Below are positions 3,759 through 37,168 of a DNA stretch of 37,168 nt, piece by piece. The notes beneath the pieces were generated by a model, which saw only the letters and a list, made by a program, of their open reading frames with translations, did no database searches and was not told the origin of the DNA. The position numbers and the translations under genes were made by a program. The stretch is taken from the IMG/VR virus record IMGVR_UViG_3300027733_000116, positions 1 to 37,168 of that record. One strand, given 5' to 3'. Every line of letters starts with the position of its first letter. The first letter of the stretch is position 1. Source of the DNA: a virus.

Positions 3759-3941
3759 ATGAACACTATCGACGCAACACAAGCCCAGCTTAACACTCAT
3801 GAAGAAGTCTGTGCGTTTAGATACGAAAGCATCTGCGCCAGAATGAAGCGTTTGGAAAGTATTGGCATGGGTGCTTGTGGAACGATCATTATGCTGTTAA
3901 TTGGCATCTTGTTAAGCATCTTACTAAAGGGTGTTACGTGA
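3759..3941 (+). CDS. Small membrane protein, XhlA-like (lysis)
   Basis: A 60-residue protein with a charged helical N-terminal half (residues 1-35) and one strongly hydrophobic segment at about 36-57 (GACGTIIMLLIGILLSILL), ending in KGVT. This is the topology of haemolysin XhlA-type phage proteins, which help holins or act as small holins. It begins the lysis cassette: its stop codon overlaps the GTG start of the endolysin by four bases (GTGA at 3938-3941), so the two are translationally coupled. Family assignment rests on size, topology and position only. Confidence 0.65.
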   Translation: MNTIDATQAQLNTHEEVCAFRYESICARMKRLESIGMGACGTIIMLLIGILLSILLKGVT

Positions 3942-4330
3942 GCATTATACTAGGTCAACGTAGTTTGTCACGGTTGGAAGGTGTCCATCCTGATCTGGTG
4001 CGCGTAGTTAAGAAGGCTGCTGCGCTGTCTGATTTAGACTTTACAGTCCTAGAAGGTTTACGCACTCTTGATCGGCAACGTAAGTTAGTTGCAGAGGGTG
4101 CATCCAAGACAATGAACTCGCGCCACCTTACTGGACACGCTGTCGATCTAGCTCCGCTGATTGATGGCACTGTTTCTTGGGACTGGCCCCTTTATCGTAG
4201 ATTAGCTAAAATAGTAAAGTCCGCTTCGGCAGATGAGAAAGTCCCGCTTCAATGGGGCGGTGATTGGCGTGCGTTCAAGGATGGCCCACATTGGGAATTG
4301 CCTTGGGCTTTTTATCCAAAGGAAAAGTAA
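3938..4330 (+). CDS. Endolysin, M15-family peptidase
   Basis: A 130-residue enzyme predicted to cut the peptide part of peptidoglycan (L-alanoyl-D-glutamate or related bond). The M15 zinc motif is complete: SRHLTGHAVD at residues 61-70, with ligands H63 and D70, and the C-terminal WGGDW followed by DGPHWEL (H118 as third ligand). No signal peptide is visible, so it should need a holin to cross the membrane. The GTG start at 3938 was chosen because it overlaps the stop of the preceding gene (GTGA) and gives the family's normal compact length; the longer open frame from 3875 would run inside the upstream gene. The holin follows directly. Confidence 0.88.
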   Translation: MSIILGQRSLSRLEGVHPDLVRVVKKAAALSDLDFTVLEGLRTLDRQRKLVAEGASKTMNSRHLTGHAVDLAPLIDGTVSWDWPLYRRLAKIVKSASADEKVPLQWGGDWRAFKDGPHWELPWAFYPKEK

Positions 4331-31104: not shown

Positions 31105-31566
31105 ATGCTTAAAAGCGGAACGCCTGAATACTGGTTGCGTAGAAACTTTGTGGAAGTTTTAGACTTGCCCGAAGATGCGGTCGAATGGCTAATTGATCTA
31201 TGGCAAGTTGTTCAGCTTTTTGATGACATTGTTGATGGCGACAAGATAGACCGCGACGATGCTGACATGGCTATTTGGGCTGCATTGGTAGGACTACCAT
31301 CTAATCCATTCTATCAATTTCACTCTGTAGTATTGCTGCCACTCCTTAGCACTGCCATTCTAAAGTGGAAGGCATCCGATACTGTTGAATTGGCAGGGAA
31401 TGCTTGCGCTACTAGCTTTGTCTGGCGTGCTGGATATTATGATATTGTTCTTGCTACAGTGCAGTTGGTTCACGGCACACAGGCAGCAATGGAAATAGGT
31501 CACGTTGTGTTGAAACTTTATGGCGAAAGCCTTGATGAATATATGAAGGAAATGTCTGATGCCTGA
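31105..31566 (+). CDS. Unknown protein with DDxxD motif
   Basis: A 153-residue helical protein. Residues 33-50 (LFDDIVDGDKIDRDD) carry DDIVD, a match to the Asp-rich metal motif DDxxD of isoprenoid synthases, and a second acidic patch follows. It is too short to be a full synthase of that family (around 300 residues) and sits just before the gp7-like ejection protein, so a virion or ejection-associated role is equally likely. The ATG at 31105 has AGGAAG at a good distance. Overlaps the next gene by eight bases. Confidence 0.65.
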   Translation: MLKSGTPEYWLRRNFVEVLDLPEDAVEWLIDLWQVVQLFDDIVDGDKIDRDDADMAIWAALVGLPSNPFYQFHSVVLLPLLSTAILKWKASDTVELAGNACATSFVWRAGYYDIVLATVQLVHGTQAAMEIGHVVLKLYGESLDEYMKEMSDA

Positions 31567-32170
31567 TCCAGTAACGGGAATTGGTGCTGCTGTCAGTATC
31601 GGTGGCTCTCTTTTAAAAGGTAAAGCTGCAAGTAAAGCAGGTCAACTTCAGTATGATGCAAGCATGGCTGGTGTCGCTGAAACCCGCCAAGCTCGCGAAG
31701 AAATGCGTGCTTTGCTTCAACCATACACTGCGGCTGGTGGCCCTGCTCTTGAGGCGCAGATGGCTGCGTTAGGACTTGCTGGCCCAGAAGCGCAGCAAGC
31801 CTATGTATCAGGGCAAGAACAAAGCCCATTCTTTCAATCATTGGCCCAACAAGGCGAAAACGCCATCCTGCAAAACGCTTCGGCAACTGGCGGACTTCGT
31901 GGCGGCAACGTTCAAGGCGCATTAGCTCAGTTTCGCCCTCAATTGTTAAATCAGTTTCTTGAGCAGCAATATGGTCGTTTGGGCGGCATGACGCAATTAG
32001 GTCAGCGGTCTGCTGCTGGCGTTGGCGCGGCTGGACTGGATGCGGCTGGCGACATTTCTACGCTTCTTGGTGAAGGTGGTGCTGCAAGAGCGGGATCAGC
32101 TTTGGCAAAAGGCCAAATGTTTGGCGACATCCTCGGTTCTGTGGGTGGCGTTGCAAAGGGACTATTCTAA
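31559..32170 (+). CDS. DNA ejection protein gp7-like
   Basis: A 203-residue protein similar in size to P22 gp7 (229). Start GIGAAVSIGGSLLKGKAASKAGQLQYDASMAGVAETRQAREEMRALLQPYTAAGGPALEAQMAALG is typical of phage internal proteins that leave with the genome and form a trans-envelope channel. The C-terminal part is Gly/Ala-rich (GGMTQLGQRSAAGVGAAG... DILGSVGGVAKGLF) and may insert in membrane. It overlaps its neighbours on both sides. Confidence 0.85.
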   Translation: MPDPVTGIGAAVSIGGSLLKGKAASKAGQLQYDASMAGVAETRQAREEMRALLQPYTAAGGPALEAQMAALGLAGPEAQQAYVSGQEQSPFFQSLAQQGENAILQNASATGGLRGGNVQGALAQFRPQLLNQFLEQQYGRLGGMTQLGQRSAAGVGAAGLDAAGDISTLLGEGGAARAGSALAKGQMFGDILGSVGGVAKGLF

Positions 32171-33042
32171 TGGTTCAGCCGATTAATTACGCTGACTTAG
32201 CTGGAGGCTTTCAATCTCCACAAGAGGCATTTACTAATACGATTAAGTTGCGCGAATATTATTTGCAGCAGCAAAAAGCGGCTGAAGATGCACGGTTAGC
32301 TAAAGAGAAAACTGTGCGAATGGAAGCTGATTTAAAAGATTACACAACAAATCCAGACCCTCAAAAACTAGCTACTTTGCACCTGAATTATCCAGTCCTT
32401 AAAGAATCACTGAATAGCTATACGGCAACACTCTCAGATGCAGACAAGCGCACCACAACCGATTTTGCTACACAGGCTTTTGGTCTTAATCGCGCTGGCA
32501 AAACGGAAGATGTTCTAAATTTATTTGACAGATATATCGCTGGTGCTGAAAAGCGTCCTGAAATGGTTCGTGTTTTCAAAGATGCTAAAGAAACATATTC
32601 AAAGATTGAAGATCCAAAAGCACGCGAGGCTTTAATTGGTTCTGTTCTAGCTGGAACAGGAAAAGATGGTCTTGATATTTATGACAAGATTTGGAACGCA
32701 CAAGATGGTGCTAAACTAGATACTGCTACAATTAAAAACCTTCAGGCTGAAGGATTAGTTCTTGGAACACCTGAATTTCAAGCAGCTATAAAATCAGAGC
32801 GCGAAAAGATAACCACAACGCTTCCAGGTGGCGGTTTCTATTCAGGAAGCCCATCGGGATTAGCACAAATATTGGGTGGCCAACCTATCCCTAGTAATGT
32901 GCAAAAAGGCCCACCACGTAGACCAACTACAAAAGAAGAATTTGACAAACTTCCACCAGGTTCCATCTTTATTGATCCAAATGGTGTAACTCGTGAAAAG
33001 CCAGGAGGTCAGACGGCTGCTCCGTCTGGTAACTTTCGCTGA
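32170..33042 (+). CDS. DNA ejection protein gp20-like, carrier part
   Basis: A 290-residue hydrophilic, helical protein in the position of P22 gp20 (471). The start INYADLAGGFQSPQEAFTNTIKLREYYLQQQKAAEDARLAKEK is a typical coiled-coil region of ejection proteins; the C-terminal 70 residues are Pro/Gly-rich (GPPRRPTTKEEFDKLPPGS). The frame ends at TGA 33040-33042. In the +1 frame the sequence continues as ADGRVVIGKLFP into an M15-like peptidase. See the 33034-33055 finding: the two may form one protein of about 380 residues, near gp20 in length. Confidence 0.75.
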   Translation: MVQPINYADLAGGFQSPQEAFTNTIKLREYYLQQQKAAEDARLAKEKTVRMEADLKDYTTNPDPQKLATLHLNYPVLKESLNSYTATLSDADKRTTTDFATQAFGLNRAGKTEDVLNLFDRYIAGAEKRPEMVRVFKDAKETYSKIEDPKAREALIGSVLAGTGKDGLDIYDKIWNAQDGAKLDTATIKNLQAEGLVLGTPEFQAAIKSEREKITTTLPGGGFYSGSPSGLAQILGGQPIPSNVQKGPPRRPTTKEEFDKLPPGSIFIDPNGVTREKPGGQTAAPSGNFR

Positions 33043-33052
33043 TGGTAGAGTT

Positions 33053-33313
33053 GTGATTGGTAAACTATTTCCTAATGCAAGAATAACATCTGGCTATCGT
33101 GGGCCAAATGATCCGCTGTCTAAAAAGAATCCAAGGTCTTATCATCGCACTCCTGGTGCTGTTGATATTGCCCCAATAGCTGGAATGACATTTAAAGAAT
33201 ATATTTCTGGCATCAAGAATGCTGGTTATAAAATTATTGAAGCTCGTGACGAGGTAAAGAACCCGTCTAAATATGCTACTGGCCCACACTGGCACGTTGT
33301 GATTGGAACTTAA
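33053..33313 (+). CDS. M15-like peptidase domain (separate gene or +1 extension)
   Basis: In the +1 frame, 86 residues from the GTG at 33053: VIGKLFPNARITSGYRGPND, then SYHRTPGAVDIAP and GPHWHVVIG. The H-x6-D spacing in HRTPGAVD and the HxH at the end match the zinc ligands of M15-type peptidases (compare the endolysin at 3938). The frame is open from 32993 and reads VTFADGRVV immediately upstream, which also looks coding. No good ribosome site is seen. Likely role: a virion peptidoglycan hydrolase that helps DNA cross the wall. Confidence 0.7.
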   Translation: MIGKLFPNARITSGYRGPNDPLSKKNPRSYHRTPGAVDIAPIAGMTFKEYISGIKNAGYKIIEARDEVKNPSKYATGPHWHVVIGT

Positions 33314-33314
33314 T

Positions 33315-34016
33315 ATGGCTACTCAAGAAAATTGGTGGGAAGGTTCTGCCATTGTTGCAAAGCCCAATAAGACGCAACAAGTAGATGGTGGCGTTTATGT
33401 GCCTCCTGCGCCAGAAAAGCCTGACAAGCCTACGGAGACATTTTCCATAGCCACGCCAGAGCAAAAGGCTGCTGCTGGGCTCGATCCTAATCGCGTGTAT
33501 CAAGTTGGCTCAGTGACCGGAGAGTTTAAGGATGTTGGTGGGCAGGCTCCCGCTAAAGCTGCTGCAACACCAGACACCAATCGTCTTCCACAGCTTTATA
33601 CTGGCATTTCTGCGGTTAGGGATTTGCGTAATCTTTCCGATAAATTTTTGTCATTAGGAAGGCAGGCTGGCGGCATTAGCGAAACGCCTATTCTTGGTTC
33701 GCTGCTTGGACAGAATCGTTCTGACCTTGAGGGATCAATTGAAATCCTCAAGGGCATTATCATTCAAGATCAGCTTGCGCGTCTAGCTAAGATTAACCCT
33801 GCTGGCGTAGCTGGCCTTGCAAACACCCCTGGTGAGCAAGAGCGGTTTGTTTCAGCTATTGCAAACCTGAATCCCAATCAAAGCCCAGAGAATTTTGCTA
33901 TCGGACTGCAACGCGCTGAAGATTATCTCAACCGGCAATTAAAAGAATCTGGTGGAGAGCCTGCTGGTGAAAGAGGTGCTCCGGTAGCTGGCTTAACAGA
34001 GGCAGATAGACCTTAA
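33315..34016 (+). CDS. Ejection protein, N-terminal part
   Basis: A 233-residue protein: an N-terminal Pro/Lys-rich stretch, then NRLPQLYTGISAVRDLRNLSDKFLSLGRQAGG, GQNRSDLEGSIEILKGIIIQDQLARLAKINP and IGLQRAEDYLNRQLKESGG, all helical. It ends at TAA 34014-34016. In the +1 frame the text continues without break (LKNARDLQEAWRSGKTIEEL) into the large gene at 34030. It may therefore be the N-terminal part of one protein of about 940 residues. Position matches P22 gp16. Confidence 0.7.
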   Translation: MATQENWWEGSAIVAKPNKTQQVDGGVYVPPAPEKPDKPTETFSIATPEQKAAAGLDPNRVYQVGSVTGEFKDVGGQAPAKAAATPDTNRLPQLYTGISAVRDLRNLSDKFLSLGRQAGGISETPILGSLLGQNRSDLEGSIEILKGIIIQDQLARLAKINPAGVAGLANTPGEQERFVSAIANLNPNQSPENFAIGLQRAEDYLNRQLKESGGEPAGERGAPVAGLTEADRP

Positions 34017-34029
34017 AAACGCAAGAGAT

Positions 34030-36138
34030 TTGCAAGAAGCTTGGCGCAGCGGGAAAACGATTGAAGAACTTAGTGCTATTTCAATAGCAAATGTTGGCTC
34101 ACCATTAACGCCTGAAAGTATTGCAGCTTTAACGGCGGACACGAATCGTCAATTGCAGTTCCAGCCATACCTTGCTCCAATGCAAGATGTCACAGAAGAC
34201 ATGGGCATTGTGGAAAGTATAGTTGAATCTGCGACTGGCTCAGAGCGTAGCACGCCTGAAATTGAGGCGGCTGCTGACTGGACAACGATGCCGGAGCTTA
34301 ACGAGCTATCCGTTTCTGGCGCACGTACTGGTATCGGTACAATGTTCACAAGCCCAGAAGAATCCGTAAAGATTATTCAAGCTAACTATCCTAGCGTTGA
34401 AGTGCGGCAGGACGAAAAGGGTAACTACATTCTTCGGTCGAGAAACGGTAAAGATTACGGAATTAAACCTGGATTTCGCTTTAGCGATGTTCCTCGCGCC
34501 ATTGGTGGTATATTGGCGTTTACCCCTGCTGGACGAGCAGCAACATTTACAGGTGCAGCCGTTAAGTCAGGAGCTACTCAAGCAGCCATTGAAGGCACTG
34601 AGTTTGCGGCTGGCGGAGAGTTTAACGCACAGCCTATTCTTATGGCTACAGCGGCTGGCCCTGCCGAAAAAATTGTTGGAGATGTGGTATCGGCTGCACT
34701 CCCATCAGTAACGTCTAAATTGAGACAACTTACTGGACAACCTGAAATACCATTAGGAGCGGCTCCTGAAGCCCCTGCTGGCATGGCAATGCCATCCGCT
34801 AGTGCAATGGCTCCTGATGCACCAATGCCAAGCGCTGCGCCTTCTGCTGGGCCTACCATCGTAACTCCTGCTCCTGGTGTTGCTCCTGCATCAAGGCCAG
34901 GCGGTGGAGCAATGTCTACAAGCGAACAAACTATACGCGCTCAACGTGCTGCTGAATTGCCAGTGCCTATCGAACTTGCACGGTTCCAGCGGACACGCGA
35001 CTTTGTGGAGCAGCAACGCGCACGAGAGCTTGCTAAGAACAATGAAGTCGGTGGCCCTATTCGTGAGCGCATGGCCCGTCAGCAAGACGAACTGCGTCAG
35101 AACTTTGAAAGCTTTATCGAAGGCACAGGTTCTGAAGTATGGAATAACCCATACGAACAGGGCGGTGTTATTGCGGACGCTCTAGGAACTCTTGCAAAGC
35201 GTGAACGCACTAGGACTAATGCGCTATACAAGCGTGCTGAAAAGTCTGGTGAAATGCGTGAGCCTGTTGACTACAAAGAGTTGTCAGATTTCATTGCAGA
35301 GCAAACGCCAACCACCCGCGAGAAATTAGCTCCAGTTCTAAAGACTGTTGAAGAACAACTATTATCGAGTGATCCTAATAAGACGGGAATGATTTCCCTG
35401 AATATGATGGAGGACATCCGCAAGCTCATTAACAAGGTTGCAAGCCCAGGAACACCAGATGCCAGCTTTGGTCGTGATATGCGTGGCATCATTGACAACG
35501 TGACTAAGGATGCTGGTGGCGATGTTTACAAGCAAGCTCGTGCATCTCGTGCCAAGTATGCTAGGGATTTTGAGGATATTGACCTTGTTGAAAAGGTCTT
35601 TGCCACAAAGCCTGGAAGCACAGAGCGCTATGTTGGTCTTGAAAAGGTAGTGGATAAGATCACTGGCGAAGGCACATCGCTTGATAGCGTGAGGCATTTG
35701 CTGGGCTTGCTTGAAAAGGCTGGGCCTCGTGGCACTCGCGCAATGCGGGAACTGCAAGGCTCCGTTATGGAAAAGATCAGAGACCAAGCATATCGTGGCG
35801 TAACAACCGACCAATCTGGTCAAGCCGTTATCCAACCCGCTGCGCTTAATAAGATAATTACCAGCCTGAACAAGAACGGAAAGCTCGACCTGATCTTTGA
35901 CAAGAAAACGGCAGAGCTTCTGAACACCATCAACGATGTTACCAAGGACATCATTACAGCGCCTCCAGGCAGTGTTAATGCGTCAGGAACATCAAGCGCA
36001 ATGATGAACGCGATTGATACACTGGGAACCTTCAGCACGACAGGCTTGCCTATTCCTGCCGCCAAGATTCTAAACGGTCTCCGTCAGTCAATGGCAAACA
36101 GGGGAATGCGTAAGGAAGTCAAAAGGCTTCTGGATTAA
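34030..36138 (+). CDS. Large ejection protein (gp16-like position), C-terminal part
   Basis: A 702-residue open frame counted from a TTG at 34030. Residues 150-210 have Gly/Ala-rich hydrophobic segments (AIGGILAFTPAGRAATFTGAAVKSG) suitable for membrane insertion; 230-295 is a Pro/Ala/Met low-complexity linker; the rest is long charged helices (MARQQDELRQNFESFIEG, YKELSDFIAEQTPTTREKL, ASRAKYARDFEDIDLVEKVF). These are traits of large internal ejection proteins that form the periplasmic channel. The TTG lacks a good ribosome site and coding sense extends upstream of it, so this is probably the second part of a frameshifted gene starting at 33315. Confidence 0.75.
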   Translation: MQEAWRSGKTIEELSAISIANVGSPLTPESIAALTADTNRQLQFQPYLAPMQDVTEDMGIVESIVESATGSERSTPEIEAAADWTTMPELNELSVSGARTGIGTMFTSPEESVKIIQANYPSVEVRQDEKGNYILRSRNGKDYGIKPGFRFSDVPRAIGGILAFTPAGRAATFTGAAVKSGATQAAIEGTEFAAGGEFNAQPILMATAAGPAEKIVGDVVSAALPSVTSKLRQLTGQPEIPLGAAPEAPAGMAMPSASAMAPDAPMPSAAPSAGPTIVTPAPGVAPASRPGGGAMSTSEQTIRAQRAAELPVPIELARFQRTRDFVEQQRARELAKNNEVGGPIRERMARQQDELRQNFESFIEGTGSEVWNNPYEQGGVIADALGTLAKRERTRTNALYKRAEKSGEMREPVDYKELSDFIAEQTPTTREKLAPVLKTVEEQLLSSDPNKTGMISLNMMEDIRKLINKVASPGTPDASFGRDMRGIIDNVTKDAGGDVYKQARASRAKYARDFEDIDLVEKVFATKPGSTERYVGLEKVVDKITGEGTSLDSVRHLLGLLEKAGPRGTRAMRELQGSVMEKIRDQAYRGVTTDQSGQAVIQPAALNKIITSLNKNGKLDLIFDKKTAELLNTINDVTKDIITAPPGSVNASGTSSAMMNAIDTLGTFSTTGLPIPAAKILNGLRQSMANRGMRKEVKRLLD

Positions 36139-36199: not shown

Positions 36200-37159
36200 A
36201 TGGCACTTACTCAAGTTACTGGCCCTTACCCAATATTCACTGATCTAGACGGTACGCCTCTGGATGACGGATACCTGTATATCGGTGCAATCAACGATGA
36301 CCCTGAGACAAATCCGATTCAGGTATTCTTTGATAGCAACTTAACCATTCCAGCTACGCAGCCTATCCGCACAAGTAACGGCTACGCTTATCGTAACGGC
36401 ACACCAGCATTGCTTTACACTGGCGGCGAGTTCTCGATCACAATCCGCAACAAGCGCAATGAGTTCGTTCTCTACAGTCCTGTAGGCTATGGCTTCGATC
36501 CTGCCGCTGTGTCTGCGTCTGTTGTCAAGAACGACTTTACAGGCGATGGCGTTACAGTGGCTTTTGTGCTTTCGGCATCGCCTAGCACTGTCTTGGCAAC
36601 TAATATCTTTATCAACGGCGTGTATCAGGAAAAAGATAGCTACACGCTTTCTGGTAACACAATCACATTTACAGTAGCTCCACCGCTGAGTTCCAGCATT
36701 GAGATCATGACGAACGAAACGGGTGTTATTAACTCAGGTAATGCCAATGACATCAGCTACACCCTGACTGCCGCTGGAGCAACGCTACAGAGCGTTCAGA
36801 CAAAGCTGGAGCAATACGTTTCAGTTAAAGACTTTGGTGCTGTTGGCGATGGCGTGACCGATGATACGGTAGCACTTCAAAATGCTTTGGATGCAGTTTC
36901 AGGGACGGGAATGTTTTTGCTTATCCCGCCATCTACGTCATTTTACAGAATAACATCAACGCTATATCCAAAATCAAACACAACTATTTTTGGTTATGGG
37001 GCTGAAATTAAAAACAGCGGCACATCCATATTTAACATGATATGGGCGCTAGGCACTGACGGTGGCCCATATCTTACTGACATTAGCGTTTTTGGCCTGA
37101 CTGTTGATTGTAACGGAACTTATATTGATGGCGGCGGTAGTGGCCTAGGTGCAAGCTAA
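36200..37159 (+). CDS. Tailspike protein, N-terminal part (continues at 1-1322)
   Basis: Residues 1-110 form a P22 tailspike-like head-binding domain (GPYPIFTDLDGTPLDDGYLYIG, then SNGYAYRNGTPALLYTGGEFSITIRNK), which fixes the spike to the tail hub. Residues 111-172 form a small linker domain (DFTGDGVTVAFVLSASPS... IFINGVYQEKDSYTLSG). Residues 205-230 begin the Pectate_lyase_3 beta-helix (YVSVKDFGAVGDGVTDDT). The frame stops at a TAA (37157-37159) caused by A at 37159; the left-end copy has C, giving Tyr and a 717-residue protein across the junction. It should bind and probably cleave host surface polysaccharide. Confidence 0.9.
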   Translation: MALTQVTGPYPIFTDLDGTPLDDGYLYIGAINDDPETNPIQVFFDSNLTIPATQPIRTSNGYAYRNGTPALLYTGGEFSITIRNKRNEFVLYSPVGYGFDPAAVSASVVKNDFTGDGVTVAFVLSASPSTVLATNIFINGVYQEKDSYTLSGNTITFTVAPPLSSSIEIMTNETGVINSGNANDISYTLTAAGATLQSVQTKLEQYVSVKDFGAVGDGVTDDTVALQNALDAVSGTGMFLLIPPSTSFYRITSTLYPKSNTTIFGYGAEIKNSGTSIFNMIWALGTDGGPYLTDISVFGLTVDCNGTYIDGGGSGLGAS

Positions 37160-37168
37160 TGCGATAAC
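37032..37168. repeat. Right copy of the 137-bp end redundancy
   Basis: Matches 1-137 except at 37037 (A against G) and 37159 (A against C). The second difference, ten bases from the contig end, creates the stop in the tailspike frame. Confidence 0.95.

Follow-up and report, generated by a model that had tools for sequence, protein, structure and literature searches.

To our knowledge, few natural +1 frameshift signals occur in bacteria and phages. In prfB, an internal Shine-Dalgarno (SD) sequence near the P-site codon promotes +1 slipping (PMC6321510). A stable 5' hairpin can mimic this SD: in an E. coli 70S system lacking RF2 it reached about 60% of the SD effect, and hairpin-driven +1 shifting in this published test required that absence (PMC6321510). 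A SARS-CoV hairpin located 4 nt 5' of the slip site can also stimulate +1 shifting in synthetic constructs, and a 2016 review states that a 5' structure only 'perhaps' has this effect (PMC5009743). Within the open-licence literature, promotion of +1 shifting by a 5' hairpin has been shown only in synthetic constructs (PMC6321510, PMC5009743), and no natural precedent for an SD-hairpin +1 signal was found there. The ejection proteins of P22- and T7-type phages form a conduit through the cell envelope; one of them, the transglycosylase gp16 of T7, is present in few copies (PMC8954989).

The locus described here lies in a stretch of 37,168 nucleotides (the window) which, judged by its genes, is that of a P22-like podovirus, a freshwater phage: profile matches identify portal, major head, head-closure and gp7-like ejection genes. 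We propose that the ejection gene in gp20 position (the carrier) undergoes a programmed +1 ribosomal frameshift at UUU-C (33034-33037), stimulated by an upstream SD and hairpin, which would add a wall hydrolase to some copies of the protein; we assign this reading a probability of about 0.88. Well over a hundred relatives have the same signal, which appears to shift some ribosomes forward by one base. Translations of the two window ends (1-130 and 37040-37168) overlap, with IWALGTDGGPYLTDISVFGLTVDCNGTYIDGGGSGLGAS in both, which suggests a terminally redundant, complete circular record.

The carrier gene and its frame break

The genes and products concerned are the following.

31559-32170, + strand: P22 gp7-like DNA ejection protein gene, whose stop overlaps the carrier start (PHROG 598 'DNA ejection', E=4.6e-31; Pfam P22_gp7, E=9.3e-6, just below cut-off)
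32170-33042, + strand: carrier open reading frame (ORF), gp20-position ejection protein of 290 aa, 0 frame (ORF reading; relatives 42-100% identical)
33040-33042, + strand: 0-frame UGA stop, terminating the short product (sequence reading)
33035-33313, + strand: M15-like wall-hydrolase domain, C-terminal, in the +1 frame (FADG...GPHWHVVIGT, 92 aa; residues, AlphaFold pLDDT 89.9, BFVD match)
32170-33313, + strand: predicted frameshift product of 380 aa (joined translation)
33315-36138, + strand: next gene of the ejection module, in gp16 position and outside the frameshift system (PHROG 29864 'transglycosylase', E=3.8e-12, in the second half; broken near 34012)

The order gp7-like, carrier, gp16-like matches a P22 gp20-like setting. 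A weak match to PHROG 917 ('released from the phage upon host infection') is present in two of 21 relatives (E down to 1.4e-5); the window carrier protein itself has no PHROG 917 match. The structure model of the carrier is of low confidence (pLDDT 66) and serves as a lead only.

Reading of the window together with its relatives confirms the frame break at 33034-33042 and shows that it is conserved. The 0-frame end of the carrier is ...GGT AAC TTT CGC TGA, and, shifted one base forward, the sequence is TTC GCT GAT GGT ... (FADGRVVIGKLFPNARITSGYRG...) and stays open for 92 codons up to a stop at 33311-33313. When AACT is taken as a single step, both frames join in a protein of 380 residues. A previous sequence-only reading of this DNA had described a carrier stopping at 33042, a +1 frame that reads on into HRTPGAVD and GPHWHV motifs and a joined length of about 380 residues; the same frames and both motifs were found on re-reading. 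Its proposal of a programmed shift in which tRNA-Phe re-pairs from UUU to UUC is supported by the comparative evidence given below. Missing from that account were AGGAGGT (33003-33009), a 7-bp hairpin (33010-33028) and the 5-nt spacer before UUU, and this SD plus hairpin is the strongest evidence for a programmed shift.

Residues H37, D44, H85 and H87 of the window hydrolase domain (H/D/HxH residues of the zinc type) are invariant in 24 homologues. A BFVD match to 'Peptidase M15A' has a probability of 0.96 and an E value of 0.017; the domain has no Pfam M15 match, and PDB sequence and fold searches returned no M15 structure. Its putative assignment as M15-like comes from these residues and from weak fold matches, with no curated profile. 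The window also encodes, at 3875-4330, a separate Peptidase_M15_4 protein (E=1.1e-11) that is distinct from the ejection-linked domain and is possibly an endolysin.

The SD-hairpin signal and its conservation

The signal is compact, about 35 nt, and its parts follow in a constant order: GGAGG, directly 3' of it a hairpin of 7-8 bp, 4-5 nt, then UUU-C. This unit is called the cassette below. Its parts in the window are as follows.

33003-33009, + strand: internal SD AGGAGGT, core GGAGG at 33004-33008 (sequence; 153 of 156 cassettes have GGAGG 22, 25 or 28 nt ahead of UUU)
33010-33016, + strand: 5' arm of the hairpin, CAGACGG (covariation in relatives; outer U33009-G33029 a possible extra wobble pair)
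33017-33021, + strand: hairpin loop CTGCT (loops differ among relatives; a second sub-class has GNRA, mostly GCAA)
33022-33028, + strand: 3' arm of the hairpin, CCGTCTG (covariation in relatives)
33029-33033, + strand: spacer GTAAC from hairpin to shift codon (length 3-5 nt in almost every relative, varying with the treatment of outer wobble pairs)
33034-33037, + strand: shift site UUU-C, with a proposed tRNA-Phe slip from UUU to UUC (of 113 unique cassettes, 108 have UUUC and 5 have UUUU)

Metagenomic sampling is redundant. Among the 156 cassettes there are 113 unique cores. The distance from GGAGG to UUU is 25 nt in 129 of the 156, 28 nt in 20 and 22 nt in four. UUU-Y is kept in every unique cassette (113/113), making re-pairing of the P-site tRNA in the +1 frame possible. 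Stems are far more diverse: 62 different sequences were collected, with loops either variable or GNRA, including CAGACGG/CCGTCTG, CAGGCGG/CCGCCTG (cyanophage Pam1), CCGACGC/GCGTCGG, TGGTGGCA/TGCCACCA and CACCGCTA/TAGCGGTG. A stop occupies the A site in only four of the 113 unique cassettes, and across relatives it lies 1 to 16 codons past UUU; none of the A-site codons (CGC, CAA, CCC) is clearly a slow one. The sequence-only reading had the slip occur just before a stop. In the window UGA does adjoin the slip site, but this is incidental, because the stop is found at such varied distances in relatives, and a stop-codon-driven slip was rejected for this reason.

No Rfam match was obtained at E<=1 within 32800-33400. 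Taken by itself, the window cassette has no unusual fold energy (z=-1.55); the hairpin structure rests on covariation. Arm pairing reaches 96.6% in one layout, against 64.9 +/- 3.8% in shuffled controls, and 99.4% in the other, against 71.2 +/- 2.8%. Among 31 distinct GNRA-type cassettes, aligned from hits with paired arms, 8/8 pairs vary on both sides and 100% of cells are paired, with a covariation score of 0.906 compared with 0.402 when shuffled and <=0.324 when slid. Because of this preselection, a protein-blind scan is the less biased test. Viral contigs were searched with the DNA pattern GGGAGG-N8-GCAA-N8-G-N4-TTTC, which is neutral on both pairing and coding. Arm pairing in the 73 unique hits was bimodal, 44 having 7-8 of eight positions paired and 29 having <=5, and the +1 layout was present in 36/44 paired hits versus 0/29 unpaired ones (p=2.5e-13); several of the eight paired hits lacking this layout are cut by contig ends. 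As background, one of 8444 further TTT sites in the cassette-bearing contigs has both a GGAGG at the right distance and a hairpin, versus 155 of the 156 cassettes. An SD and a covarying hairpin at fixed distance are conserved cis-acting elements of the type that stimulates +1 frameshifting.

The coding sequence is also constrained. In the last 11 carrier codons the modal-codon fraction is 0.946, compared with 0.728 in the remainder of the gene (p=5e-5), a codon freezing that exceeds what the GGQTxxPSGNF sequence requires. In the minimum-energy fold of window positions 33004-33037, GGAGGU of the SD also pairs with ACUUUC of the slip region and lengthens the hairpin; pairing of this kind could mask the SD from initiating ribosomes.

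The carrier protein alone, used as query, retrieved 18 viral loci (42-100% identical), and in all 18 the carrier ends at the same place with one of two hydrolase kinds following in the +1 frame. The C-terminal domain alone retrieved 45 contigs, of which 44 have the +1 layout with UUUC, the single exception (L062) carrying the domain in a different, in-frame context. For the second M15-like domain, the hydrolase is one base ahead in 49-50 of 51 contigs: 49 pass the automatic test, L205 has the same layout with GGGGGG replacing GGAGG, and L243 differs, with CCCCCTTTC and the hydrolase in a -1 relation. The junction in this last contig (L243:1469-1520, CCCCCTTTCGGGGGG) resembles a -1 heptamer (C CCU UUC) behind GGGAGG. 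Queries with domains that are common in unrelated proteins gave the +1 cassette in 25/80 cases for SLT and 35/55 for M15_3, the remainder being mostly long in-frame proteins. The open frame after SD-hairpin-TTT is +1 at 167 of 185 sites and +2 in no clear cassette. The same transition at the same place in essentially all relatives is far beyond chance.

The domains found downstream of the cassette are the window M15-like domain, the second M15-like domain, Peptidase_M15_3, SLT transglycosylases and an NPGALR-type domain. Those of the Peptidase_M15_3 and SLT kinds pass Pfam cut-offs, and the NPGALR-type matches phage endolysin profiles. The carriers include relatives of the window protein and, at the other end of the range, proteins without a recognised family; the gene upstream of them, where recognisable, is that of a gp7-like DNA ejection protein. 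Judged from these neighbours, the cassette is a portable module set before different, unrelated wall hydrolases. At five loci (L339:1500, L344:1206, L348:1209, L363:1500 and L400, minus strand, 2597) the cassette is kept and coding continues in frame 0. The +1 frame there is short, stopping within a few codons, so that a shift would truncate the protein. The cassette may be used in reverse at these loci, the shift removing a C-terminal part; indels at individual loci are the alternative.

The cassette is also present in cultured material. In the isolated cyanophage Pam1 (ON014753.1) the slip sequence is UUU-U, the carrier is annotated as an injectosome translocase, and the +1 domain appears only as a 49-aa hypothetical protein (Pam1_15). 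Pam1_14 and Pam1_15 (ON014753.1 10411-11515, locus L180) are likely to be one frameshifted gene, most of whose hydrolase domain is absent from the current annotation. The cassette also lies near phage structural genes in contigs of two cultured bacteria, Sphingopyxis sp. H073 and S. bauzanensis DSM 22271; 11 of the 13 pattern matches in genome contigs are chance, without the frameshift layout. Apart from Pam1, a BLAST search with the 37-nt cassette returned only chance matches, and annotated phages searched with the carrier or the second M15-like domain yielded nothing.

Alternative readings of the junction

An assembly or sequencing error of one base at 33034, raised by the sequence-only reading, might be suspected from the second frame break that the window contains near 34012. 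That break (about 34005-34030) was considered as a second programmed site and rejected, as relatives encode both halves in one frame; the gp16-position gene is unbroken in L001 (100% identical protein), L009, L010, L022, L023 and L085. Its absence from the relatives covering the region identifies it as a window-specific one-base indel, and it provides a control for 33034. The break at 33034, in contrast to this unshared indel, is common to close and distant relatives, with UUU present in independent contigs, in Pam1 (UUU-U) and in the two cultured Sphingopyxis genomes, which refutes the assembly error and leaves it a negligible probability. The same reading had also offered translation of the hydrolase as a separate gene from a GTG, and the GTG is indeed at 33053-33055 as given; termination-reinitiation at the TGATG overlap (33040-33044) would be another route to a separate product. 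Coupling by overlap is common in phages, and TGATG or TAATG and a GTG at +19 are found in many members of the closest group. However, in homologues L023 and L087 the hydrolase frame contains none of ATG, GTG and TTG between the last stop and about +120, and it is because of these start-less relatives that a separate gene is largely refuted. The second M15-like group has no GTG, other start candidates are not common to relatives, and the ATG frame closes after a few codons. Moreover, GTG 33053 would sit 44 nt from the strong SD, and the frame relation of a separate gene would be free to be +1 or +2, whereas no clear cassette is +2. We regard separate translation as very unlikely.

The SD and folded hairpin could instead form an internal initiation site, translation starting at UUU/UUC without a normal start codon, and the collapsed SD-to-UUU distance of about 6 nt does resemble initiation spacing. 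This is equally improbable in our view: neither UUU nor UUC is known as a start codon, in-frame fusions occur among the relatives, and the carrier frame always runs through the site with UUU always in that frame, neither of which initiation would need. A different recoding event, a -2 slip or short hop in which the hairpin would drive forward movement as proposed for the 5' hairpin of T4 gene 60 bypassing (PMC5009743), is extremely unlikely. A -2 move provides no Phe codon, no gap or landing codon is needed, and UUU-Y permits tRNA-Phe to re-pair at +1 in each of the 113 unique cassettes.

Proposed mechanism and comparison with known systems

The comparisons show the two frames, the conserved elements, covarying base pairs, relatives lacking start codons and exchange of domains; what we infer from these patterns is the programmed +1 shift itself, its rate and the ribosome mechanics. 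Ribosomes staying in frame would make the 290-aa ejection protein, and a fraction would slip +1 as tRNA-Phe moves from UUU to UUC, adding the 92-aa putative M15-like peptidoglycan hydrolase domain to give 380 aa. The stimulator would be the internal SD with its adjoining 7-8 bp hairpin, which ends 4-5 nt before the slip codon. A GGAGG lying 25 nt from UUU is too far away for known prfB-type action unless the hairpin folds. It is proposed that the hairpin refolds behind the ribosome, beside the E site, and leaves a path of about 6 nt instead of 25 nt between SD and P site; the mRNA could then be pushed forward by the hairpin together with the SD/anti-SD helix, in the manner of the prfB SD. The SD might act by pairing at the moment of the slip or by earlier pausing of the ribosome, either being possible. 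The gp20-like subunits of the virion would be mixed, only some carrying the enzyme.

We lean, by a small margin over even odds, towards a broader proposal: that these cassettes belong to a new kind of recoding signal in bacteria, one whose hairpin folds in the mRNA exit path, docks a distant SD beside the P site and drives +1 movement without a stop or a rare codon, and that phages swap the module to dose virion wall hydrolases, a few perhaps using it in reverse. This suggests that phages may dose a wall-cutting enzyme inside an otherwise structural injection channel. A frameshift would explain why annotation misses the wall-hydrolase part of these ejection proteins, as with the 49-aa Pam1_15. 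Since the signal is natural and compact, shows very strong covariation and occurs in cultured material, a forward push by structure behind the ribosome becomes directly testable.

One of the closest known systems is prfB, in which a P-site tRNA also slips +1 with the aid of an internal SD, on UUU in some low-GC bacteria (PMC12421855). The prfB SD lies a few nt from the slip codon, whereas here it is 25 nt away in most cassettes with a hairpin between; UUU-Y replaces CUU-UGA, no A-site stop is needed, and the outcome is an extra domain instead of autoregulation. The synthetic upstream-hairpin constructs likewise have a hairpin a few nt 5' of the slip codon, beside the E site, which favours +1 shifting in 70S and 80S systems (PMC6321510, PMC5009743), but the hairpin described here is natural, evolutionarily kept and joined to an SD. 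Listeria phages PSA, A118 and A500 produce C-terminally extended +1 products from structural genes (capsid, tail shaft) (PMC5009743). Those phages slip on CCC with a stop or a 3' pseudoknot, a 5' SD-hairpin has not been described for them, and the part added is not a wall hydrolase. The 'DNA/protein translocase' of Sphingopyxis phage VSN-002 (QVJ07697.1) has the same gene position and, at its C-terminus, the same hydrolase domain as the window. It is a plain in-frame fusion without the cassette, the kind of homologue that the sequence-only reading had suggested looking for. T7 gp16 is also an ejection protein with a wall hydrolase, in few copies per virion (PMC8954989); there, however, every gp16 copy has the domain and no recoding is involved. 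Finally, a hairpin behind the ribosome has been proposed to drive forward movement in the bypassing of T4 gene 60 (PMC5009743), although the movement in that case is a 50-nt jump with take-off and landing codons, and the one proposed here is a slip of a single base.
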